In this document: piece by piece, positions 2,994 to 51,433 of the stretch
Layout: the number at the start of each line of letters is the position of its first letter
Position numbering within the stretch: position 1 is the first letter of the stretch
IMG/VR virus record: IMGVR_UViG_3300006916_000006
Span: 1 to 51,915 of that record
DNA length: 51,915 nucleotides
Strand: one strand, 5' to 3'
Origin: a virus
Translations under genes and position numbers: made by a program
The notes under the pieces: generated by a model
The model's input: only the letters and a program-made list of their open reading frames with translations
Told to the model about the DNA's origin: nothing
Database searches by the model: none

Positions 2994-3341
2994 ACTAGTG
3001 GCACACCAGTGGTCAGGTCCAAAAAGCCCCTAGAGTTAGATTTTTCTCTTATATTTCAATATCAATTTCTGTACCTGGTCAAGTGGTATACCAATTTTTG
3101 AAACTTCTAATATAATGCTTTCTAACAGGGCTTACTGTGCTATATATATCACACCCCCTTCTCTACACCCCTAAATACCAACTTATTAGGTTTTATCTAT
3201 ACCACTTGGGCAGCTAGCATAATCAACATTGAAAAAGAATCATTTTTTCTCATTCCGCACCCAAAAAATATCTGACCACTACCCTACCAGTGGTCAGCCA
3301 CCAAAAAACATGAAAAAACTTCTTGATACCAAAAACACCCC
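2994..3341. other. Divergent control region, possible origin
   Basis: 348 bases without a gene between the leftward and rightward arms, AT-rich. It holds three sets of inverted repeats built on an ACCACT/AGTGGT core: CTGACCAC (2979-2986) with GTGGTCAG (3009-3016); AAGTGGTATA (3081-3090) with TATACCACTT (3198-3207); and a tight hairpin CTGACCACT/AGTGGTCAG (3272-3280 and 3289-3297, eight-base loop). A TATAAT at 3111-3116 follows a GAAACTTC half-site (3100-3107) and may be a weak rightward promoter. The layout suits a replication origin or a switch bound by a dimeric protein. Confidence 0.6.
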
Positions 3342-3351
3342 ATGTTAAAAT
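3312..3351 (+). promoter_or_regulatory. Replication-arm promoter with operator
   Basis: TTGATA (3323-3328) lies 17 bases from TAAAAT (3346-3351), predicting a start near 3358. The 11-mer GAAAAAACTTC (3312-3322), a member of the palindrome family found in other promoters here, ends just upstream of the -35. Because this promoter lies inside the 5' end of the longest reading frame (ATG at 3342), the gene start is moved to 3396. Confidence 0.6.
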
Positions 3352-3395
3352 CATATCACCTAAGCAACCCACAACCTATAAGCGAGTATGACCCC

Positions 3396-4082
3396 ATGCA
3401 TCCAAGCCTCACAAACATCCCCACAATAGAAATACCGATGTTCACTTCGCGCCCAAAAGCCACATCACCCACACTGGGGGATATAATAGAAGAGTTAATG
3501 ACATTGCCTTTGCGAACTCCAACCGCATACTTCATGTATGCACCATCACTAACAGTGTCTGACACCAACAACACACCCCGCACCAACACCACCCCCAACA
3601 CACCCAACACCCAAGGCACACCAGAGCAAAACCCTTATTTACTGACGCCCTCACTCCTACCCACACTCCCACTAAGCCCGGAGCCTTTGGCCAACAGCCG
3701 CCGTCAGTACCCTTTACTCAATGACATATGCTGCTACCTCCTTGCCCACTCATCATCCAGTGGCAATTCCTTAACCACTGCGTACCCCCTCTTCGTCAAT
3801 GAGCGCCGCCGCCAGCCTTCTCCGGCGCTGAACTCTCACAGAATGTTTGAACTAACCCAGAAAGTCATCTACGTTGATCTCCCCCATGGCACAAATCGTA
3901 CCCGGAGAAAATTAGCTATGTGTTTATATCTTGTCTCGCGTTTTGCAGCTCCCCCACGGGTGGGCAGTCTGGCGTGGAAAGAATCTCAGAATTTGATGAA
4001 TTGGTTACGGCGAGCGTCTGTGCCTAATGAGAGCGATGGGCGATATAAGAACTCCCCCGCCACCAATATTACCCCCGCCTAG
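3396..4082 (+). CDS. Hypothetical protein upstream of primase
   Basis: About 228 residues from MHPSLTN. An ATG at 3342 in the same frame is possible, but it precedes the predicted transcription start. The N-terminal half is rich in Thr, Pro and Asn with a low-complexity stretch (about residues 55-80) that looks disordered. The C-terminal half has an NERRR basic patch and two helical segments (MFELTQKVIY, LAMCLYLVSRF) and may be the folded part. First gene of the rightward transcript and 57 bases before the primase-helicase, so a role in replication initiation is plausible but unproven. The coding strand is strongly C-rich. Confidence 0.6.
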   Translation: MHPSLTNIPTIEIPMFTSRPKATSPTLGDIIEELMTLPLRTPTAYFMYAPSLTVSDTNNTPRTNTTPNTPNTQGTPEQNPYLLTPSLLPTLPLSPEPLANSRRQYPLLNDICCYLLAHSSSSGNSLTTAYPLFVNERRRQPSPALNSHRMFELTQKVIYVDLPHGTNRTRRKLAMCLYLVSRFAAPPRVGSLAWKESQNLMNWLRRASVPNESDGRYKNSPATNITPA

Positions 4083-4139
4083 CCGCCAACATTACCAAAA
4101 CACACCACCTACAACCCAAACCACAAAGGCACTGCAACC

Positions 4140-7100
4140 ATGCCCTACAAAATCCCACAACCCCCTCTACTCTTCCCGGCACTGACGCCAAAGACATTCT
4201 ATGACTTAAATTGGAATCCATTCCCTGTTCACCCCCCATCATCCCCCGTCTATGAGAACCCCAAGCGCGTCCCTGCCGCAGTCATTAAACATTGCACAAC
4301 GACACCTGCGTCAAACCTACTTCCCCCTGAAGACCAACACCCCTATGAACCTCACTCACTTGTGGGCAAACTGCCCGCCATAGCTGGCTGGCGTGGCAGA
4401 CCCAAACCTGCGGCCTTTATTCCATCTCATTACACTCAGCCACAACCCATGAACATTGGCCTTAATCTGCCAAAGACCATCCTTGTCCTCGACGTCGATA
4501 ATCATAATCCTGACCCACAAAATCCCTCAGAGCCAAACCAGAACCTCCGGCAACTCTGTGAAGACCTTAGCTTAAACGAAGACTATCTGACCCACGTTAA
4601 AACCAAAGACGAAGCGCGTAATGCGACGTGGTTACAATACCTCCTCTCTAATGATTCCCCATCACGCCAGGGGCAACTGCCCGACCACTTCCTGCGTGCC
4701 ATCACTGACCCTAACCTCCACACACCCCCAACACCCCACCCTGCGAAAGCCCACGGTGCGTCATGGGGGTCCTCTTTCTATAAACGTAATCCCATCCCTG
4801 ATGACCTCACAGACGAACACGGTCTTCCTGTCACTGCCCTTGACCTTATGACCCCCTACCGTGTCTTAACCGGCAGCAAACCTCACCCCGGCACACATCT
4901 GGCCTTTCGTATCCCCGCCGAGAAAGCCACACAAATTCGCAAGAATCTCAAATCCTACCCCGGCATTGATTTTCTCAATTACAAATCCATGATACTAGCG
5001 CCAGGTTCTGTCCACCGTAGCAACAACTATTACACCCCATGCCCACTCAACTTCACACCCCCCTGCGAAGACAACCTCATTGGCATCCTTCAATACTTCC
5101 GGGCGTCCCTACCCTTCGATAAGGCTGTCAAACTCAAACCTGAGAAACTTCAGCGTATCCGTGAGACTGAGCCTGAACTATGGCAGAAACTCTGCGACAC
5201 TTACCTACCCCTCCTACACGCTTACACAGCGAGGTTAATGTTATCCTGGACACCACAAGCCCCCGCAGCTCTGTTAAACGTCCTGACAAACAATTATACC
5301 CCACGGCAGTTCCTATTCCCTAAAGGGTTGTCCCCGACCCCCCATGCCTCCACCCTCAGCGACCCAAACACCTCTGACAGCGCCAACCCCCCTATCTATG
5401 AAACACCTGAGTCTATTGATGACCTCTTATCTATCTACCATAACTCCACAGAAACCCCTTATGACACAGACGAAGATGACCCTGAGAATCATGCGACCGC
5501 AGAAGACCTCTTCAAACACGACCCACGCACACACACAGAGGCCACACAACTCTGTAAAACCCACCCTGCGGCCATAGAAGGGTGTGGGGGTAATTTAACA
5601 ACCTTCACACTTGCGGCCAGACTTAACGACCTTCACCTCCATCCCGACACCGCGATGGAACTAATGGAAATCTGGTACAACCCACGTTGCGAGCCACCGT
5701 GGGACTCAACCGAACTTGAGCAAATCATTATCAATGCCTACACCTATTGCCACCGCAAACCTGAGACGGCAAAGCAAACCATCGACCGCCTTTTCCGCGA
5801 GGCCAGAGAACTTGCGGCCTTAACCCAGGAAGCAGAGACCACCACACTGACCAAAGAACAGGCCACACAATCCTCTGCGGATGAATTTGACACCCTCATG
5901 TCTCAATTCATTAAAGACAATGAAAAACTGTCCCCTGTGCCAACGCCCACGCCCACACAGCCCTCTACCCCTGTCCAAACCGCAAAAGAAGAACCCGCAG
6001 AAGAGCCTACCGGTGCGCCCATCACGCAACTGACACCCAAAGAGCGCCCTGACACAGACATACCCCTCTTACCAAACATCCCGCCGTCAGACCTGTACCC
6101 AAAATCATCCCCCGACTCCGGCAAGACCATTTATAGTTTCATGCCTTTAGATGGCCAGCCACACCCAGCAGGGAATCCTCAGACCCGTGTCCCAACAAAA
6201 GACAAGCGCCTTGAAATCTTCAATGAGTATTCTGGCCATCAGACACGGGCAGATATTGAAGAACAACTTGAGTCTGAACGGCGTACATGGATGAACGAAG
6301 TCGAGATCATCACCGATGAAAAGTCCGGTGCGACACGACTCAACCCTGCGCGTAAACTTAAAAATATTTCCCTCTTTTTGACACACCTCGAAGAGTTCCA
6401 GGGATTATTGTCTTATTCAACCTTTGCAAACCAAATCATCGTCACGCGTCCATCACCCATCTTTACAAATCGGATACCCGAACTCTGCCCTCGTAACGCC
6501 AAAAATTTCCCTCACCATATCGGCGTACCCCTCGACGACCGTATTGAAAGCATCATGAAGTCCTACCTTGAGCGTTACTCTCAATTCGGCCTTGATGACC
6601 AAATGCGCGACAGTCTCCTCTATAATGGTATCAGCGTAGGCAAAGACCAATTCACTGAAGCTGTACAAATGGCAGCCTATGCAAACCCATCTCATCCTGT
6701 TAGAGACTACGCCCTTGAGTGTCTTCTCAAATGGGACGGTGAGACACGTTTATTTGATTGGTTGCCTCAGATTGCCAACACAAAAACAGACATCTACACC
6801 CGCGAGACTGGCGCACTTATGATTCAGGCCATCATTGCGCGTGCGTTTAACCCAGGCCACAAGTTTGACTACATGTTTGTCCTCGACGGGGAAGAAGGTG
6901 TGCGGAAGTCAACTTTGTGCCGTACCTTGGCAATACGCCCTGAATGGTTCAAAGAATCTTCTATGGACATTGAAGACCCAAAAAACATCATGGAACAGAC
7001 GCAGTCCTCTCTCGTGGTGGAAATGCCCGAACTTGTGGGGATGTATAAACGTGAAATTGAAGCCATGAAACATTTTATCACCACCACCAGCGACCACGGC

Positions 7101-7787
7101 AGACCTGCGTATGCCAGATATGCAACGACCATCAAACGTCAGTTCATTCTTTTCGGTACAACCAACGACACTCAATATCTGAGCGACTCTTCTGGCAAGA
7201 ATCGTCGGTTCATCCCAGTCAACATCCCCCAAATTATGGACACAACCCGACTACAACACATCATGCCCCAACTCATAGGTGAGGCTCTGTGGCATTACCT
7301 CTTAGTGCGGAAAGAGTCTCGCCGCCGCCGGACAGACTTTGCAAATTACGAACTTGTCCTGTCCCAAGGCGCAGATGAGATTGCATCAAACCTGCGAAAA
7401 GACCGGCTTATACAAGATGACCGGTTCCACCAGATTGAGCCATGGTTAAACGGCGACGGCACACCAGAAGACTTCACCTGGCCAGCGCCGACGATTTACA
7501 ACCGCGAGAACAATCTTGTCTATGCTATCGACACTCAGACAATTGCGCGTGTTTTATTCCGCATGACCATGCGCGAAGTCAACCCCAAAGCCCAGCGAGA
7601 AATTAAAAGCCTCATGACCGGCCACGGCTGGAAACATGAGCGTATCCAATACCAGAAACAACGCCTCAGAATGTTCATACGCCCCAACAGCGAGAGAGAG
7701 CGTCACCTTTACGGTGTTCAAACCATTGAAGGGAAGTCCTATGATATGACCGGGAAAGTCGTCGAGGCAAAAAGTGCTACTAAATAA
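4140..7787 (+). CDS. PrimPol-VapE replicative primase-helicase
   Basis: 1,215 residues. The N-terminal part is an archaeo-eukaryotic primase-polymerase domain: LVLDVDN with the catalytic D118 and D120, a GTHLAF motif with the conserved His, then GIDFLNY and a LAPGSVH strand. The middle (about 430-680) is a helical and Pro/Thr-rich linker. The C-terminal half is a virulence-associated-E type (VapE, DUF5906-like) P-loop ATPase: Walker A near residues 917-926 (DGEEGVRKST), LVVEMPELVGM, the ITTTSDHGRPAY element, FGTTND and GKNRRF with the arginine-finger region. Such proteins make primers and unwind DNA at phage origins. The Walker A has Arg where Gly is usual (GVRKS). A weak AAGG site precedes the ATG. 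Confidence 0.9.
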   Translation: MPYKIPQPPLLFPALTPKTFYDLNWNPFPVHPPSSPVYENPKRVPAAVIKHCTTTPASNLLPPEDQHPYEPHSLVGKLPAIAGWRGRPKPAAFIPSHYTQPQPMNIGLNLPKTILVLDVDNHNPDPQNPSEPNQNLRQLCEDLSLNEDYLTHVKTKDEARNATWLQYLLSNDSPSRQGQLPDHFLRAITDPNLHTPPTPHPAKAHGASWGSSFYKRNPIPDDLTDEHGLPVTALDLMTPYRVLTGSKPHPGTHLAFRIPAEKATQIRKNLKSYPGIDFLNYKSMILAPGSVHRSNNYYTPCPLNFTPPCEDNLIGILQYFRASLPFDKAVKLKPEKLQRIRETEPELWQKLCDTYLPLLHAYTARLMLSWTPQAPAALLNVLTNNYTPRQFLFPKGLSPTPHASTLSDPNTSDSANPPIYETPESIDDLLSIYHNSTETPYDTDEDDPENHATAEDLFKHDPRTHTEATQLCKTHPAAIEGCGGNLTTFTLAARLNDLHLHPDTAMELMEIWYNPRCEPPWDSTELEQIIINAYTYCHRKPETAKQTIDRLFREARELAALTQEAETTTLTKEQATQSSADEFDTLMSQFIKDNEKLSPVPTPTPTQPSTPVQTAKEEPAEEPTGAPITQLTPKERPDTDIPLLPNIPPSDLYPKSSPDSGKTIYSFMPLDGQPHPAGNPQTRVPTKDKRLEIFNEYSGHQTRADIEEQLESERRTWMNEVEIITDEKSGATRLNPARKLKNISLFLTHLEEFQGLLSYSTFANQIIVTRPSPIFTNRIPELCPRNAKNFPHHIGVPLDDRIESIMKSYLERYSQFGLDDQMRDSLLYNGISVGKDQFTEAVQMAAYANPSHPVRDYALECLLKWDGETRLFDWLPQIANTKTDIYTRETGALMIQAIIARAFNPGHKFDYMFVLDGEEGVRKSTLCRTLAIRPEWFKESSMDIEDPKNIMEQTQSSLVVEMPELVGMYKREIEAMKHFITTTSDHGRPAYARYATTIKRQFILFGTTNDTQYLSDSSGKNRRFIPVNIPQIMDTTRLQHIMPQLIGEALWHYLLVRKESRRRRTDFANYELVLSQGADEIASNLRKDRLIQDDRFHQIEPWLNGDGTPEDFTWPAPTIYNRENNLVYAIDTQTIARVLFRMTMREVNPKAQREIKSLMTGHGWKHERIQYQKQRLRMFIRPNSERERHLYGVQTIEGKSYDMTGKVVEAKSATK

Positions 7788-7814: not shown

Positions 7815-7855
7815 TTGACAAAGGTGAAGTAACTTCGTTATACTATAGAGGCAAC
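7815..7855 (+). promoter_or_regulatory. Early promoter with internal palindrome
   Basis: TTGACA (7815-7820), an 18-base spacer containing the perfect palindrome GAAGTAACTTC (7826-7836), then TATACT (7839-7844), with GCAAC starting at the predicted +1 (7851). It is the consensus member of the promoter family of this genome and drives the small-gene block starting at 7882. A dimeric regulator sitting on the palindrome would directly block polymerase. Confidence 0.85.
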
Positions 7856-11419: not shown

Positions 11420-11666
11420 ATACCGAATCGTAGTTCAGGAGATGGACACTCAAGAGACGCGGATAAGTGTTTCGGACGAGGTGTTCACATCTTTTACCAC
11501 AGCAAAACTCGGTGCAGTCACACTGGCAACGCAAACATCTATCCGCGACCGTTTCTTTATCCAGCGCATTGATACCGGGGAGATTGTGGCTTTGTTTTTT
11601 GGCACAGTTGTAGATGAGTCAGAGATACAGGAGGGGGGTTATGACCGAAGCACAGTCCTTCATTGA
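11403..11666 (+). CDS. Hypothetical early protein, TTG start
   Basis: 87 residues starting at a TTG preceded by GGGG at a good distance. The first internal ATG (11442) has its AGGAG directly abutting it and so is unlikely to be used. A compact beta-rich protein (YKYRIVVQEM, FTTAKLGAVTLATQ, RFFIQRIDTGEIVALFFG). It overlaps both neighbours by 17 and 26 bases. Function unknown. Confidence 0.6.
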   Translation: MQQNYKYRIVVQEMDTQETRISVSDEVFTSFTTAKLGAVTLATQTSIRDRFFIQRIDTGEIVALFFGTVVDESEIQEGGYDRSTVLH

Positions 11667-11988
11667 TGACGCAAGGCAAACATTGACAAATTTAGACAGT
11701 ACACAACATGAAAAGTTCAATTTAGCGATCGAGCAACGCATGGGGGAACTCATAAAACGCCGGAGACTTGCTGCGGGTATGAGTCGCGCAGAACTTGCGA
11801 CTTACGTTGGGTGCAAAGAGAGTTACATCTTCACCCTGGAAAACGGCACAGATCGGTTTCGCGCACACCAACTGTCTCGCATCCTCTACGCCTTGAAGAT
11901 AACACCGGCATCTTTCTTTGCGGAAGTGTTCAAACACATGACGTACTTACTTGGGAACCCTAACAGCATTTACGAGGTAAAGAAATGA
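11641..11988 (+). CDS. XRE-family helix-turn-helix regulator
   Basis: 115 residues from MTEAQSF, chosen over an upstream start at 11614 because GGAGG lies just before 11641. Residues 34-95 are a classic HTH_3 domain: GELIKRRRLAAGMSRAELATY, then VGCKESYIFTLENG as turn and recognition helix, and the AHQLSRILYALKITPASFF closing helices. A short N-terminal helical extension may dimerise. This is the most obvious DNA-binding candidate for the GAANNNNNTTC palindromes that sit in most promoters of the genome, since XRE dimers bind sites of that size. It lies in the transcript of the 7815 promoter, which carries such a site, so feedback control is plausible. Not tested. Confidence 0.85.
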   Translation: MTEAQSFIDDARQTLTNLDSTQHEKFNLAIEQRMGELIKRRRLAAGMSRAELATYVGCKESYIFTLENGTDRFRAHQLSRILYALKITPASFFAEVFKHMTYLLGNPNSIYEVKK

Positions 11989-12269: not shown

Positions 12270-12299
12270 GAAGAAACTTCGCTATACTACCTTTGCAAC
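12259..12299 (+). promoter_or_regulatory. Early promoter with internal palindrome
   Basis: TTGACA (12259-12264), 18-base spacer with GAAGAAACTTC (12270-12280), TATACT (12283-12288), GCAAC at the predicted +1 (12295). Same geometry as the 7815 promoter. It overlaps the end of the upstream gene and serves the helicase block starting at 12319. Confidence 0.85.
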
Positions 12300-20652: not shown

Positions 20653-20692
20653 TTGCATAGATGAAATTGTTTCGTTATAATGAAAAGGCAAC
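20653..20692 (+). promoter_or_regulatory. Early promoter with internal palindrome
   Basis: TTGCAT (20653-20658), 17-base spacer with GAAATTGTTTC (20663-20673), TATAAT (20676-20681), GCAAC at +1 (20688). The 33 bases ending in this -10 are identical to the promoter at 36615 that drives the reversed cassette in the late region. It serves the last early operon, 20711-22707. Confidence 0.85.
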
Positions 20693-32410: not shown

Positions 32411-33211
32411 TGACTATCCTGCTTTCCCGCTTTTCAGGGGTTTGTTGCTCTTTCTCAAGTCTCTTGTGCTGATGCTCTAGGTAGGTGTTGTCCATAGAGA
32501 ATATCAACTCAACAAACTCGTCTATGTTTGTTGTACCATAAATTTCAGTATATGTCTTGATACCCTCTAATGTCAAAGGCATGGGTGTGCCGGACATCCC
32601 AGCATACTGCCGTGGCCGGTTAATGAGCCAGAAGGCTTGCCAGAACTCCACAAGCCATGACGGCAGTTCTGGGCGCACTGGAACAGGGACGGGCAAACCT
32701 TTCGCCCGTCGCTTTTCAATCAGTTCCATGTGTTCAGGATGGACATTCCCCCACTGAAGATGCCAGTGCAGGGATTCAGTTAGTTTTTTATGTCTTCAAC
32801 CCTTGCGTCAGCGTCGAAGTTGGCGAGGTCTTGGGCTAGTTCAAACGCCTCACTGAACAAAGCGTTCCATGATTCATCTGCGGGGTCAACACCTGCGATG
32901 GTTGTTAAGTTCTCAAAACTGTACGGGACTTTCTTGCCGTCTTTGTCTTTAACTGCCCAGTCTACCCACAATTCTTTGGCAATGAGCGTATGCAGTTTAC
33001 GGTTCAACTCTTTACGCAGGGGTTCATTCTCAACAGCGTTTTTGCCTTTAGCCTTAATCTCTTTTTCAATCTTAGCTGCTTTCAAAACGAAAGGTTTGTA
33101 AGTCGCAGCGCGGGTTTTGATTTCAGTTCCATCCGACAATTCAACCCATGCGCCTTCATACTCAGCTTCAAGGTTACGTTTCAGACCTGCGCCGAAGTTG
33201 ACTTCTGACAT
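32379..33211 (-). CDS. Tail assembly chaperone, -1 frameshift fusion
   Basis: Reading 33211 down to the slippery site and shifting back one base gives a fusion of 143 plus 134 residues. After the shift the frame reads LTESLHWHLQWGNVHPEHM and joins the second frame ELIEKRRAKG without a stop. The second part has a PSWLVEFWQAFWLINRPRQY segment and a charged C-terminus that overlaps the tape-measure start. This is the lambda gpG/gpGT arrangement, in which the fusion helps wrap the tape measure. A separate start at 32729 has no ribosome-binding site, which supports frameshifting. Confidence 0.85.
32780..33211 (-). CDS. Tail assembly chaperone, short form
   Basis: 143 residues, MSEVNFGAGL, ending in ARVEDIKN at a TAA. 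A beta N-terminus (GAWVELSDGTEIKTRAATYK) precedes a helical Lys-rich part and a VDPADESWNALFSEAF helix typical of siphophage gpG-like chaperones. This is the major product when no frameshift occurs. Its AGGAG lies inside a strong hairpin (33215-33250), so its translation may be limited. Confidence 0.85.
   Translation of the reverse strand: MSEVNFGAGLKRNLEAEYEGAWVELSDGTEIKTRAATYKPFVLKAAKIEKEIKAKGKNAVENEPLRKELNRKLHTLIAKELWVDWAVKDKDGKKVPYSFENLTTIAGVDPADESWNALFSEAFELAQDLANFDADARVEDIKN
32783..32789 (-). promoter_or_regulatory. Programmed -1 frameshift site A AAA AAC
   Basis: On the minus strand the zero-frame codons are ATA AAA AAC TAA, so the canonical heptamer A AAA AAC lies directly before the stop codon of the short chaperone. 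Slipping one base back opens the reading frame of the second chaperone. It is one of the most slippery heptamers known in bacteria. Confidence 0.85.
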
Positions 33212-33214
33212 AAA

Positions 33215-33250
33215 TAATCTCCTGTGGTTTTATGTTACCACAGGAGACTA
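33215..33250 (-). promoter_or_regulatory. Hairpin sequestering the chaperone ribosome-binding site
   Basis: The two arms (33215-33228 and 33237-33250) pair over 14 bases with one G-U, ten of them perfect around CUCCUGUGGU/ACCACAGGAG, with an eight-base loop. The AGGAG that serves the chaperone ATG at 33211 is in the stem. The sequence after the stem is AUUAUUU, too poor in U for a strong terminator. It separates tail tube from chaperone translation. Confidence 0.75.
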
Positions 33251-33278
33251 CTATAAAGAAGTTATTTCGTCAATAAGA

Positions 33279-35583: not shown

Positions 35584-35940
35584 CTAATGCCCCCCTCGCA
35601 CTGTCAGGATGTAGAGCGCGTCTTCCCCAAAGGCAGTGCGCCTATCAACACTGACGACTTTGTAAGTGTCGCCTCCCAGCAAAACAATATCGTTTTCGTC
35701 AGGTACAAAGCTCACGGCATCGGCGGCAATCCGCACTTCACGGTCGCCGTCTCGCACAAGCCCCGATATTTCTTTTGCAGTGTAGCGACGCGCGTGTGCT
35801 TTTATTGTTGAATTTGTGTACGTGGGGGTGTTTGCCAAGGTTGTTTCGTTGAAAGACACGCTGGATAGCCGCCGATAGGTCACTGTTTCCCCGTGAGATT
35901 GCAGAACAGCGTCGATGCGCTCTGGTATGTTCAGAGTCAT
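35584..35940 (-). CDS. Head-tail adaptor / stopper protein
   Basis: 118 residues, MTLNIPERIDAVLQSHGE. The pattern TVTYRRLSSVSFNE, KAHARRYTAKEISG, FVPDENDIVLLGGDTYKVVSVD is that of phage head closure (SPP1 gp16-like) proteins: a small beta barrel that plugs the portal channel. It is coupled to the connector gene by an ATGA overlap. Confidence 0.75.
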   Translation of the reverse strand: MTLNIPERIDAVLQSHGETVTYRRLSSVSFNETTLANTPTYTNSTIKAHARRYTAKEISGLVRDGDREVRIAADAVSFVPDENDIVLLGGDTYKVVSVDRRTAFGEDALYILTVRGGH

Positions 35941-36560
35941 GCGCGGCGCTCGCGGTAGGGTTCGAGTAGTAATGCCGCCGATGCGGGGATGCCTAACGCG
36001 CCACCAGAACCTTGTGTGTTACCATAACGCACTGAATAGACTTGTGGCACTGTCTCAGAAGCAATCGCAGAGTCGCGCTGACGGCCATAATAGAAAGATT
36101 TAACAATCTCAATACAGGCTTGCTCAATTTCCGCAGGTAATGTGGGTGTACCTGAACCAAAGCTGTGCAGGACATAGCCATAAGTGTAGTCAATGGAGTA
36201 ATCAAACTCTCGCTCAGTGTTTGTCCAGTTTGTGACCTTGCGGATGATTCCGGCTTTATCATCTTCGAGGAAATAATCTGACGCAGCAACCGCAGTGCCT
36301 TCGTATGAAACGCTGTGCAAGGTTGTGACGGGGTAGCGTGAAGTCATCAGAATTTCTGAACCATCGCTCGCTAATGTCTCTGTGACTCGCTGCTGAGCAA
36401 ACTCACGCTGGCAGTAAGACACAATCAATGCACTGGCACGTTCAATAAAACGGCCAATAATTGTATCATAAGTGGACACGTCAATACCTAAGTCATCTTT
36501 GACTCTGGCAGTCGTTGTTAAGTCAGTCGATGCTGCTGCGGAAGTAACGGTTATGGCCAT
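35937..36560 (-). CDS. Head-tail connector (gp6-like adaptor)
   Basis: 207 residues, MAITVTSAAASTDLTT. The helices ARVKDDLGIDVSTYDTIIGRF and IERASALIVSYCQREFAQ and the PVTTLHSVSYEG strand match gp6-like connector proteins that ring the portal. There is no ribosome-binding site; a weak promoter (36568-36597) places the start of transcription at or next to the ATG. It is the first late gene after the reversed cassette and therefore may need a separate promoter. Confidence 0.8.
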   Translation of the reverse strand: MAITVTSAAASTDLTTTARVKDDLGIDVSTYDTIIGRFIERASALIVSYCQREFAQQRVTETLASDGSEILMTSRYPVTTLHSVSYEGTAVAASDYFLEDDKAGIIRKVTNWTNTEREFDYSIDYTYGYVLHSFGSGTPTLPAEIEQACIEIVKSFYYGRQRDSAIASETVPQVYSVRYGNTQGSGGALGIPASAALLLEPYRERRA

Positions 36561-36614: not shown

Positions 36615-36654
36615 TTGCATAGATGAAATTGTTTCGTTATACTGGAGGGGCAAC
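36615..36654 (+). promoter_or_regulatory. Promoter of the reversed cassette
   Basis: TTGCAT (36615-36620), GAAATTGTTTC (36625-36635), TATACT (36638-36643), GCAAC at +1 (36650). The stretch up to the -10 is identical over 33 bases to the early promoter at 20653. The cassette behind it thus should be expressed with the early genes although it lies among late genes. Confidence 0.85.
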
Positions 36655-48996: not shown

Positions 48997-49407
48997 TCAT
49001 GCCTTGGGACTTTTAGGGGTTTCTGGGTTTTCTGAGGTGGGGTTGGGGGTGAGGTGTGAGTTTTGACTCATGACACGTTGAATCTGCCGAAACACAAGGG
49101 CGAGGGTAATCTTCGCCGTTGAAGAAGGCTCAGTTGCCCCATTAAGGTAAGACACAACAGAACGTGGGGTGACATCAAGGATACGGGCGATGTCTTTCTG
49201 CGTAAATGCCAATGCGTGAATCATGTACGCTGCAATCGGGCAGTGTTGGACTTGCTGCCATGCATGTTTGTTTTTCACAAAGGCACAGTTTTGTTTTACT
49301 TCTTCAGACGTGCGCGTGTAGAAGTCTTCAAGACTGGAAATGACTTCATCAGCCGCATTGAGATACGGACGTGCGAGTGTCAGGGCATGTTCAGAGCGTT
49401 TTGGCAT
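48997..49407 (-). CDS. Helix-turn-helix protein between terminase and portal
   Basis: 136 residues. FTQKDIARILDVTPRSVVSYL followed by NGATEPSSTAKI is a helix-turn-helix with a clear recognition helix. The N-terminal half is helical (ADEVISSLEDFYTRTSEEVK) and the tail is Pro/Ser-rich. It could be a transcription regulator or a packaging factor. Its promoter contains a GAANNNNNTTC palindrome and the ATG coincides with the predicted transcription start, so it may bind its own promoter. It has no ribosome-binding site. Confidence 0.72.
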   Translation of the reverse strand: MPKRSEHALTLARPYLNAADEVISSLEDFYTRTSEEVKQNCAFVKNKHAWQQVQHCPIAAYMIHALAFTQKDIARILDVTPRSVVSYLNGATEPSSTAKITLALVFRQIQRVMSQNSHLTPNPTSENPETPKSPKA

Positions 49408-49413
49408 AGTTGT

Positions 49414-49442
49414 ATATTACGAAATGTTTTCACTTGTGTCAA
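49414..49442 (-). promoter_or_regulatory. Leaderless promoter of HTH gene with palindrome
   Basis: On the minus strand TTGACA (49437-49442), 17 bases, TAATAT (49414-49419). The first base of the ATG (49407) is at the predicted +1. The spacer contains GAAAACATTTC (49421-49431), of the same GAANNNNNTTC form as the early-promoter palindromes. No Shine-Dalgarno sequence. Confidence 0.7.
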
Positions 49443-49472: not shown

Positions 49473-51014
49473 CTATAAGGTACGGATTCGTGGCTCAGAC
49501 GGGAATGAGGATTTTACAAAATTGAGATATTGGCTGATGGAGTCAACAATATCGTCGTGCTTACCGTTTGGGAAATACATGCATTGCCGTTCGAACTCTT
49601 CCCACCATGGTCTTTGTTGGTGGTCATTGGGTAGTAAGAGAGATGAGGACTCAATAAAGGCGGGTATGGACGTCGCGGCACGTGTGAGTTTGTTTTGTTG
49701 TGGTGTAGGCGTGATGGCTTTGATGGGCAATGTGGTGTCTTTCCGCAGGTCTTGGATAAGTTGTTGCCCAGAGGCTTTGTCTTCAATTAGAATGACGGTT
49801 GGGTGTGGGGTTTTATTGGCCTGAGAAATGACGAGTTGATAGAGTTCAGGATACTCAAGGCGCGTGGCGATAACGTCTAAGAGGTAATGGTGGGTTTTGG
49901 TCTCTAACCATGTCGTACACACAGAGAAGTCGCTACGAGAGGTGGTTTTGATGGCTGTGTCCCAACTATGGGTGATACGCAGGGCTTGTGTTGGGGGTGG
50001 GAGATTTGCAGGGTCATAGGTACAGGACTGAAGTTGTTGGAGATTGATGATACCCCCGTCTGTCGGGGCAGGGTTTTGCATATACTGAGAAGCAAACGTG
50101 TATGGGCCACGCTCAGGGTCCGTCTTAATGGCCTCCAGGGATTCGCGGGTATCACGAGTCGGGTGAAGGAGGTCATCGGGATTCTGAGTGTGTGACGTGT
50201 TGTAGAAATAATAGGTTTGGGGGTCTTCTGTCTGGGGGTGGATTGCAGGTAGAATGACAGGCGTGAATTGTTCGCTTGGTGGACGCTTGGGGTTTTGGCG
50301 CAGGAGTTCACCGGGCAGGTCTCCTTCATGAAGACGCTGGGCAATGACGATGGTCGAACCATTGGTTTTATCATTGAGTCGTGAGGGGTACAGGGTATTG
50401 AAGAAGAAACGATTGGCACGTGTAAGTTCCGTGGGTGAGAAGGCTTGCTCGGGGGAGAGCAAATCATCAATCAGAAGTGTGTCAGCACCAAATGATGTCA
50501 CCGTGCCTTGGGGTGATGTCGCAAGGCATTGACCGCCTTTAGTCGTGGTGATGTGAGACTCCGTAGCTTTTTCAAGTATGGGGGTGTCGGGGGCAGGGAA
50601 TATCTGTTCGTACAGAGGGTGCTTTAAGAGACGAGCGAGTTTTGTATTGATGTTCGCAGAAGCCCTGGTTGAGAAGGACGCAATGATAGCCTGAAACGAA
50701 GGGTTGTGGCCTAAGCAGAACGCAGGAAAAGCCACAGAGACAGTTTCGGTCTTCAGGGAGCGCGGAGGAACATTGATAATCAGGTTACGGTTTCTTTGTT
50801 CAGGTGTGAGGGTTGACGGATACGCAGGGTGATCAGTGGGCAATGAGGATTGCAGCATCCAGCACAAATATTCCAGATGCCAGTTCCAATTCAGTTTGGT
50901 GTTGGGGTTGAGTATGCGAAAGGCAAGGCGCAGGAAAACACGGAAGTCTGTTTGCGCCAGCTTGAGAGCGAGTTGGATTTGCTCAGTGGGGGGTGTTGTG
51001 TGGGGGGTGTTCAT
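49473..51014 (-). CDS. Terminase large subunit
   Basis: 513 residues. The ATPase has a VPPRSLKTE Walker A (residues 82-90), TLLIDDLLS Walker B (D183, D184) and a conserved Gln-Arg-Leu coupling region (VIAQRLHEGD). The nuclease has THSWDTAIK (D352), VILIEDKASG (E411, D412) and KHDDIVDS near 490. It powers packaging and cuts the concatemer. The ATG at 51014 lies six bases after a TATAAT and has no ribosome-binding site. The coding strand is strongly C-rich. Confidence 0.93.
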   Translation of the reverse strand: MNTPHTTPPTEQIQLALKLAQTDFRVFLRLAFRILNPNTKLNWNWHLEYLCWMLQSSLPTDHPAYPSTLTPEQRNRNLIINVPPRSLKTETVSVAFPAFCLGHNPSFQAIIASFSTRASANINTKLARLLKHPLYEQIFPAPDTPILEKATESHITTTKGGQCLATSPQGTVTSFGADTLLIDDLLSPEQAFSPTELTRANRFFFNTLYPSRLNDKTNGSTIVIAQRLHEGDLPGELLRQNPKRPPSEQFTPVILPAIHPQTEDPQTYYFYNTSHTQNPDDLLHPTRDTRESLEAIKTDPERGPYTFASQYMQNPAPTDGGIINLQQLQSCTYDPANLPPPTQALRITHSWDTAIKTTSRSDFSVCTTWLETKTHHYLLDVIATRLEYPELYQLVISQANKTPHPTVILIEDKASGQQLIQDLRKDTTLPIKAITPTPQQNKLTRAATSIPAFIESSSLLLPNDHQQRPWWEEFERQCMYFPNGKHDDIVDSISQYLNFVKSSFPSEPRIRTL

Positions 51015-51020
51015 AGGGCG

Positions 51021-51049
51021 ATTATAACATAGAAGAAAATTCTGTATAG
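51021..51049 (-). promoter_or_regulatory. Leaderless terminase promoter with palindrome
   Basis: On the minus strand TATAAT (51021-51026) lies exactly six bases before the terminase ATG, so +1 is the A of the start codon. A -35 is weak (TATACA or CTATAC at 51043-51049). The spacer contains GAATTTTCTTC (51032-51042), a GAANNNNNTTC palindrome. Confidence 0.6.
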
Positions 51050-51062
51050 GGGTGGGGTGCGG

Positions 51063-51180
51063 GAAGTTATTTCTTTATACTAAAAAATTTGTGTTAGTTG
51101 GGATTGGGATAAGAGAATTTATTTCTATATACTGATTTTTCTGAGTTAGTTGGGGTTGAGCGAAGTTACTTCTATATACT
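51063..51180 (+). repeat. Three tandem operator-promoter repeats
   Basis: Three degenerate units of about 50 bp, each with a palindrome followed by TATACT two bases later: GAAGTTATTTC (51063-51073) with TATACT at 51076; GAATTTATTTC (51115-51125) with TATACT at 51128; GAAGTTACTTC (51162-51172) with TATACT at 51175. Each is followed by an A/T tract and TTAGTTGGG. -35 elements are poor (best TTGGGA at 51104-51109, spacing 18). With the site at 51032 this makes four palindromes beside the terminase gene. They point rightward as promoters but could mainly be repressor or packaging sites. Confidence 0.75.
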
Positions 51181-51186
51181 AAAAAT

Positions 51187-51264
51187 TTTACATTAGTTGG
51201 GGTAGGGGTCGTGTGTGCAGCACCTTTCAAGCTGCACTCGATTTTACCCCGCAGGGGGGTTTTT
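51187..51264 (+). ncRNA. Putative small RNA with two hairpins
   Basis: A transcript from the third tandem promoter would begin near 51187. It contains a perfect hairpin GTGCAGC/GCTGCAC (51215-51221 and 51231-51237, nine-base loop), then CCCC-GCA-GGGG followed by GG and five Ts (51247-51264), a good intrinsic terminator. There is no reading frame in the stretch. Length about 78 bases. It may be a true RNA, or the hairpins may just stop read-through toward the opposing left operon. Confidence 0.45.
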
Positions 51265-51305
51265 GGTGATTGGGCGTCTTTTATTGGTGATTGGGTGTCT
51301 TTTTG
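51263..51305. repeat. Two 21-bp tandem repeats
   Basis: TTGGTGATTGGGCGTCTTTTA (51263-51283) is followed by a copy with TGGGTGTCTTTTT (51284-51304) and the start of a third (TGGTGAT). Non-coding stretch between terminase and the left operon. Meaning unknown; it may be part of the packaging or origin region. Confidence 0.6.
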
Positions 51306-51433
51306 TGGTGATGCGCGACAAGGTGCTATCCCCTGCCGCGCTGTTGATTAATTCAGAATTGCATCTAATGCATGGATAAGCGCGAAAAAAGCGCCTATAC
51401 ACATGCAAAAAACCGGAAAAAATACGTGCATAG
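51306..51433. other. Non-coding end of left operon
   Basis: No gene. An imperfect hairpin, GCGCG/CGCGC with internal pairs and mismatches, spans 51313-51341, and GCGC occurs on both sides of an A-run near 51380-51395. Neither ends in a clear T-run in the leftward direction, so the end of the left operon transcript is not obvious; read-through into the terminase gene is possible. Confidence 0.4.

Follow-up and report, generated by a model that had tools for sequence, protein, structure and literature searches.

In phage lambda the CI/Cro operators cluster between divergent promoters at a spacing of ~20 bp, and the usual location of a repressor operator is an inverted repeat in the spacer of a near-consensus promoter. 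Operator clusters and dispersed phage operators are both known kinds of control element. In cluster A mycobacteriophages of the L5 type, one repressor is paired with many short sites throughout the genome, some of them true operators within promoters, and the site motif diverges between related phages along with the repressor (PMC6550527). The C1 protein of phage P1, which maintains lysogeny with antirepressors, is likewise a single repressor, and the promoters on which it acts have its scattered operators nearby (PMC8198154). A different use of repeated sites is seen in the lambda cosB (R3-I1-R2-R1), where the small terminase subunit, TerS, reads three R sites next to the terminase gene (PMC4669245). 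In TerS proteins the HTH is at the N terminus and precedes an oligomerisation core (PMC9611059).

We analysed a window of 51,915 nt (the whole stretch, positions 1 to 51,915, of IMG/VR record IMGVR_UViG_3300006916_000006) from an uncultured phage lineage. The two ends of the record have 123 identical bases in common, so that it closes as a 51,792-bp circular map; a 100% identical contig from another sample, L003, spans both the end junction and the array described below. The early genes run rightward at about 3.3–22.4 kb and encode a primase/helicase, helicases, an exonuclease, a DNA polymerase and a RuvC-like resolvase. The late genes run leftward and include terL, an HTH gene and those for the portal, protease, major head protein and tape measure. 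No integrase was found among the proteins scanned (some small ORFs lay outside the scan), and an Rfam search of the whole window gave zero matches. Third codon positions are strongly C-rich on the sense strand (−0.29 to −0.38) in the first early genes (3342–7787) and in terL (49473–51014), unlike most of the genome. A tandem non-coding repeat of ~55 bp (TTTTGGACGGGTTCGGTAG...) occupies 1906–2028, at the left end of the window.

Upstream of terL we found four copies of the palindrome GAA-N5-TTC, at 51032, 51063, 51115 and 51162 (Table 1), exactly where the original prediction had placed them. As it had also proposed, the first overlaps the terminase promoter, lying between TATACA and TATAAT, and each of the others is joined across 2 nt to a TATACT on the + strand. 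The description of an array held for the four sites and needs one amendment: the last three are tandem copies of a ~50-bp segment that also carries TTAGTTGGG, once per array unit (51094, 51146 and 51193). When the three copies were compared, 16 of 19 columns were invariant in the palindrome plus TATACT and 9 of 9 in TTAGTTGGG, against 12 of 33 in the remainder. Elsewhere in the window TTAGTTGGG shows no enrichment. The site at the terL promoter is the weakest of the four, with symmetry limited to the outer GAA/TTC.

Table 1. Putative operators, promoters, genes and hairpins of the window
Feature	Position	Strand	Details
Operator in early promoter spacer, TTGACA-18-TATACT	7826..7844	+	operon with XRE gene
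XRE (Cro/CI-type) protein, early operon	11614..11988	+	HTH_31 and HTH_3 above cut-off; rival candidate binder
Operator in early promoter spacer, TTGACA-18-TATACT	12270..12288	+	helicase operon
Operator in promoter spacer, TTGCAT-17-TATAAT	20663..20681	+	promoter and composite-site scans
Operator plus TATAGT, ahead of tail-assembly-chaperone gene	33250..33268	-	site beside -10 of leftward promoter
Operator in promoter spacer, TTGCAT-17-TATACT	36625..36643	+	rightward small genes within late region
HTH protein, 136 aa, between terL and portal	48997..49407	-	weak HTH_3 match; candidate binder
Strong operator match within HTH coding sequence	49337..49347		84 bp from HTH promoter site
HTH-gene promoter TTGACA-17-TAATAT	49414..49442	-	spacer operator GAAAACATTTC (49421-49431); 6 nt to ATG
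terL, large terminase subunit	49473..51014	-	phrog_38, E 4.8e-89; Terminase_6C
terL promoter TATACA-16 nt-TATAAT, extended -10 TGtTATAAT	51021..51048	-	-10 to ATG 6 nt
Operator 1, GAAGAAAATTC, in terL promoter spacer	51032..51042		rank 14 of 51,782 with independent matrix
Three tandem ~50-bp direct repeats	51054..51207	+	spacing 52 and 47; 73-80% identity to copy 1
Array unit 1 core, GAAGTTATTTC-TT-TATACT	51063..51081	+	sequence, shuffles, matrix
Array unit 2 core, GAATTTATTTC-TA-TATACT	51115..51133	+	sequence, shuffles, promoter scan, matrix
Array unit 3 core, GAAGTTACTTC-TA-TATACT	51162..51180	+	best-scoring site of genome
Hairpin H1, 7-bp stem, 9-nt loop	51215..51237	-	preserved in relative L002, different sequence
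Hairpin H2, 11-bp stem, no U-tract	51313..51341	-	preserved in relative L002, different sequence

The cluster of sites is real and non-random. The composite GAA-N5-TTC-NN-TATANT has eight matches in the genome, where dinucleotide shuffles average 0.005, and local shuffles gave a mean of 0.02 sites against the three observed, with 0 of 5,000 shuffles reaching three. Since the copies of the array are not independent of one another, a matrix built from sites elsewhere is the fair test; trained only on sites outside the region, it ranked the four sites 1, 2 (tie), 12 and 14 among 51,782 positions.

At least six promoters distant from the array contain the same type of site, as a short inverted repeat overlapping the −35/−10 region. 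All four of the operator-bearing rightward promoters have TTGACA or TTGCAT as −35 and TATACT or TATAAT as −10. Because the site lies in the spacers of near-consensus promoters, we read it as an operator, with repression as its probable effect. Matches to the matrix that are weaker or otherwise placed were found at 3312, 34576 and 49337. The last of these bears on the claim that no gene other than terL has more than one site, which was nearly right: the HTH gene has one in its promoter (49421) and the match within its coding sequence. We also noted that the early promoters at 7839, 12283, 20676 and 36638 (+), and a leftward promoter near 1620 (−), share a transcript leader, (G)GCAAC...AACAAGGAG; at the promoter near 1620 the leader is present and the operator is absent. 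Directly after the operator-promoter of the tail-assembly-chaperone gene, a 16-bp hairpin is found at 33190–33253 (−), with −28 kcal/mol for the stretch, and its 3′ arm includes an AGGAG Shine-Dalgarno sequence, as might be expected if translation, too, were gated.

IMG/VR was searched for relatives with TerL, MCP, DNA polymerase, portal and HTH queries and with three pattern scans. The only close matches were the same phage (L003, L004, L086, L087 and L121) and one relative, represented by L002 and L139, which are themselves the same phage (99.6% identical across the shared 2.7 kb). Matches to the promoter-operator pattern in L140–L156, L158 and L163–L166, which were partly inspected, showed nothing array-like and are probably due to chance or unrelated. 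Two contig ends from different samples of the window's own phage, L003 and L004/L087, fall 31 bp apart within terL (49987 and 50018), which may be due to chance or to some local effect of assembly or of a terminus.

TerL of L002 is 81% identical at the protein level (about 74% for terL DNA), and the gene order terL, HTH, portal is kept in L002/L139. The comparison covers positions 1–5043 of L002, a contig without the early region, in which the XRE gene is not visible. Full GAA-N5-TTC sites are located at 632 (upstream of terL), at 728 (overlapping the terL promoter, TTGAAT-17-TACACT, 7 nt to the ATG) and at 2344 (in the 17-nt spacer of the HTH-orthologue promoter, TTGACA-AACACGAAGAATCTTCG-TAGAAT), and there is a half site near 666. 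The relative, therefore, keeps sites at three matching places and has fewer by terL, two full sites and a half site against four in the window; the match within the HTH coding sequence (49337 in the window) was not seen in L002. The HTH orthologue is 27% identical, and the core of the site has diverged to GAAGAT-N-ATTC (GAAGATNATTC) or GAAGAATCTTC, as against GAAGTNACTTC in the window. When the upstream regions of the two phages were aligned locally, the best match coincided with a single array unit (CCCAACTA...AAAAATCA...GTAT...GAA...ATTC), with a score of 28 that was reached by 0.4% of shuffles. Conservation of position with change of core is as reported for L5-type repressor sites (PMC6550527), and across the two lineages available it fits an operator evolving together with a phage-encoded regulator.

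Two proteins of the phage are candidates for the binder. The AlphaFold model of the 136-aa HTH protein (pLDDT 82.5, from a low-depth alignment) has a long N-terminal helix (residues 6–40) and the HTH at about 57–90. Its nearest folds in Foldseek are XRE, HigA and C-proteins, with a best E of 0.2 and none at E ≤ 0.001; the likeness of the predicted fold to XRE regulators and antitoxin repressors is thus weak. The protein had no match in the named-phage collection. The early XRE protein has the best-supported Cro/CI-type domain in the genome, with sequence matches to 434 Cro and C.BclI; it is not significantly similar to the HTH protein. We regard the HTH protein as the leading candidate, because the site is found at the promoter of its own gene in both phages.

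Taken together, we favour the reading, at a probability of roughly 0.6, that the region upstream of terL is a multi-operator element repressing the terL/late promoter within a phage-wide regulon, most likely through the HTH protein. The sites, their placement in promoters, their excess over chance and their recurrence with a diverged core are all observed. The control switch suggested by the original prediction gains from the match between these sites and the operators of other promoters and from their recurrence in the diverged relative; the packaging part of that suggestion is less well supported. We infer binding, repression rather than activation, the HTH rather than the XRE protein as binder, and cooperativity.

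In mechanistic terms, a repressor, most likely the 136-aa protein, would bind GAA-N5-TTC as a dimer and, given a site within or next to the −35/−10 spacer, would block RNA polymerase. One operator would cover the leaderless terL promoter, and the three array units may have arisen by duplication of an operator-plus-−10 segment. The array operators, 31, 83 and 130 bp upstream, would be expected to increase occupancy locally, by looping or by binding that is cooperative, the result being a tight, threshold-like shut-off of terL and of the late genes behind it. The level of the HTH protein would be self-limiting, because the promoter of its gene bears an operator. Some observations fit this repression scheme less well. 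Not all of the site spacings (31, 52 and 47 bp) correspond to whole turns of the helix, the weakest site is that of terL itself, and the relative has fewer sites. In addition, the −10 elements of the array face away from terL, and TTAGTTGGG has no role in the scheme.

The operators of the window resemble those of lambda CI/Cro in being clustered on a control promoter, and two encoded HTH proteins might share the sites; the spacing here, however, is 31–52 bp, and the cluster is at the late terL promoter. Many short sites across the genome, some within promoters, recall L5, but the sites here are symmetrical and lie mostly in promoter spacers, whereas L5-type stoperators are asymmetric, mostly outside promoters and oriented one way through genes with transcription. 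Also, no integrase or partition gene was recognised here, and the candidate regulator is encoded in the late head operon. As with P1 C1, a single repressor would act at promoters near scattered operators; genes for lysogeny maintenance with antirepressors, as in P1, were not recognised. The placement of the cluster and the regulator family, an HTH protein without a named-phage homologue, appear new. Without prior annotation, the analysis thus points to a phage-wide regulon of an uncultured lineage and to its likely regulator; between relatives the operator motif has changed, whereas its places in the genome have been kept. If the reading is correct, the same repressor would hold the terminase/late and the early promoters in a phage without a recognised integrase, and the regulator gene would sit inside the head operon.

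The same control region might be read instead by the XRE protein, whose operon has a promoter with a perfect site, giving a timed shut-off of early and late genes, with the HTH protein doing something else. This is a variant of the favoured reading, with which its probability overlaps, and we hold it tentatively. The strength of the Cro/CI-type domain and the perfect site speak for it; against it, the sites of L002 cluster at terL and the HTH gene (the early region of L002 is missing), and the geometry of HTH autoregulation is conserved in both phages.

We next consider packaging. The array could be a packaging-initiation site of the cosB or pac type, in which the terminase or its small subunit reads the repeats by terL. 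The idea is reasonable because lambda cosB has three TerS sites by the terminase gene (PMC4669245), and here, too, repeated elements resembling protein sites stand directly upstream of terL in non-coding DNA, next to a non-coding block whose hairpins are conserved in L002. The likeness extends to three repeated sites for an HTH protein adjoining the terminase gene, of which the repeats and their position are observed and the protein sites are candidates. However, R sites serve packaging and adjoin cosN, whereas the site here is a promoter element found genome-wide, in at least six promoters outside any packaging region. The HTH protein does not have the topology of TerS, as its HTH is C-terminal to the long helix rather than N-terminal (PMC9611059), and no TerS was among the top PDB matches listed. 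Another candidate TerS, 2149–2784, gave only a sub-threshold DUF5681 match, and no recognisable TerS that could read the site was found among the proteins here. The region is crossed without a break in the window, in L003 and in L002, and closure of the genome by the 123-bp overlap falls at another place, though in judging virion ends it should be borne in mind that cellular concatemers would give the same read-through. The cumulative GC skew of the whole genome has its maximum at 51,325, and third-position skew changes sign somewhere between terL and 3342; gene by gene, however, the flip is spread over ~4 kb, from 51.0 to 3.3 kb, and we therefore did not count skew in favour of a terminus at the array. 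No genome end was placed there by the assemblies or by the skew profile. We consider this function unlikely, and the original suggestion of a terminase recognition site has lost ground accordingly. If an end were mapped nearby, the conserved block at 51200–51265 would be preferable to the palindromes as a cos/pac candidate. The case also cautions that repeats adjoining a terminase gene need not be packaging sites.

Two further possibilities are doubtful, each slightly more so than packaging. The extra copies might titrate the regulator and so hold back early promoters and terL until replication has increased the number of sites. It would suit a decoy that three of the four lie away from any conventional gene promoter and that two rank with the genome's best. 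The array, however, would be a small sink, as with it the total of sites goes up from about ten to just thirteen; the relative keeps sites here too but fewer, and placement immediately by the terL promoter suggests local action; titration is compatible with the data and requires nothing beyond operator function. Alternatively, the units might be three regulated rightward promoters whose short RNA would be antisense to the upstream leftward transcript at its 3′ end and would stop at a terminator-like hairpin plus T-run (51246–51260). The 2-nt register between operator and TATACT is the same as in true promoters. However, the −35 hexamers are poor: a recognisable one at 16–18 nt from TATACT, as expected of σ70 promoters, occurs in unit 2 only (TTGGGA, 18-nt spacer, which passes 9/12), and units 1 and 3 have none. 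Terminator-like sites are no commoner than in shuffles, the one at 51246–51260 is not preserved in L002, and the conserved hairpins favour the opposite strand. A dual role of one site and one HTH protein as late operator and packaging signal, coupling packaging to transcription shut-off, seems very improbable.

The conserved hairpins H1 and H2 lie between the upstream small-gene operon and the array. Those of their base pairs that changed to non-Watson-Crick stay paired as G-U only when read leftward, so, on a comparison of two sequences, they probably act in leftward RNA, for instance at the boundary of the upstream transcript.

Neither terL nor the HTH gene has a Shine-Dalgarno sequence, and the distance from −10 to ATG is 6 nt for both in the window and 7 and 9 nt, respectively, in L002; on these grounds their mRNAs are predicted to be leaderless or nearly so. 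The gene at 35937–36560 (−) is perhaps leaderless too (TTGGCG-18-TAAACT, 7 nt to the ATG), and several other genes have clear Shine-Dalgarno sequences. Finally, 51348–51431 (−) encodes an unannotated hydrophobic mini-protein of 27 aa, MHVFFPVFCMCIGAFFALIHALDAILN, with a counterpart in L002, MAIFFPVFIILLSLFFTLASGCNIIL.
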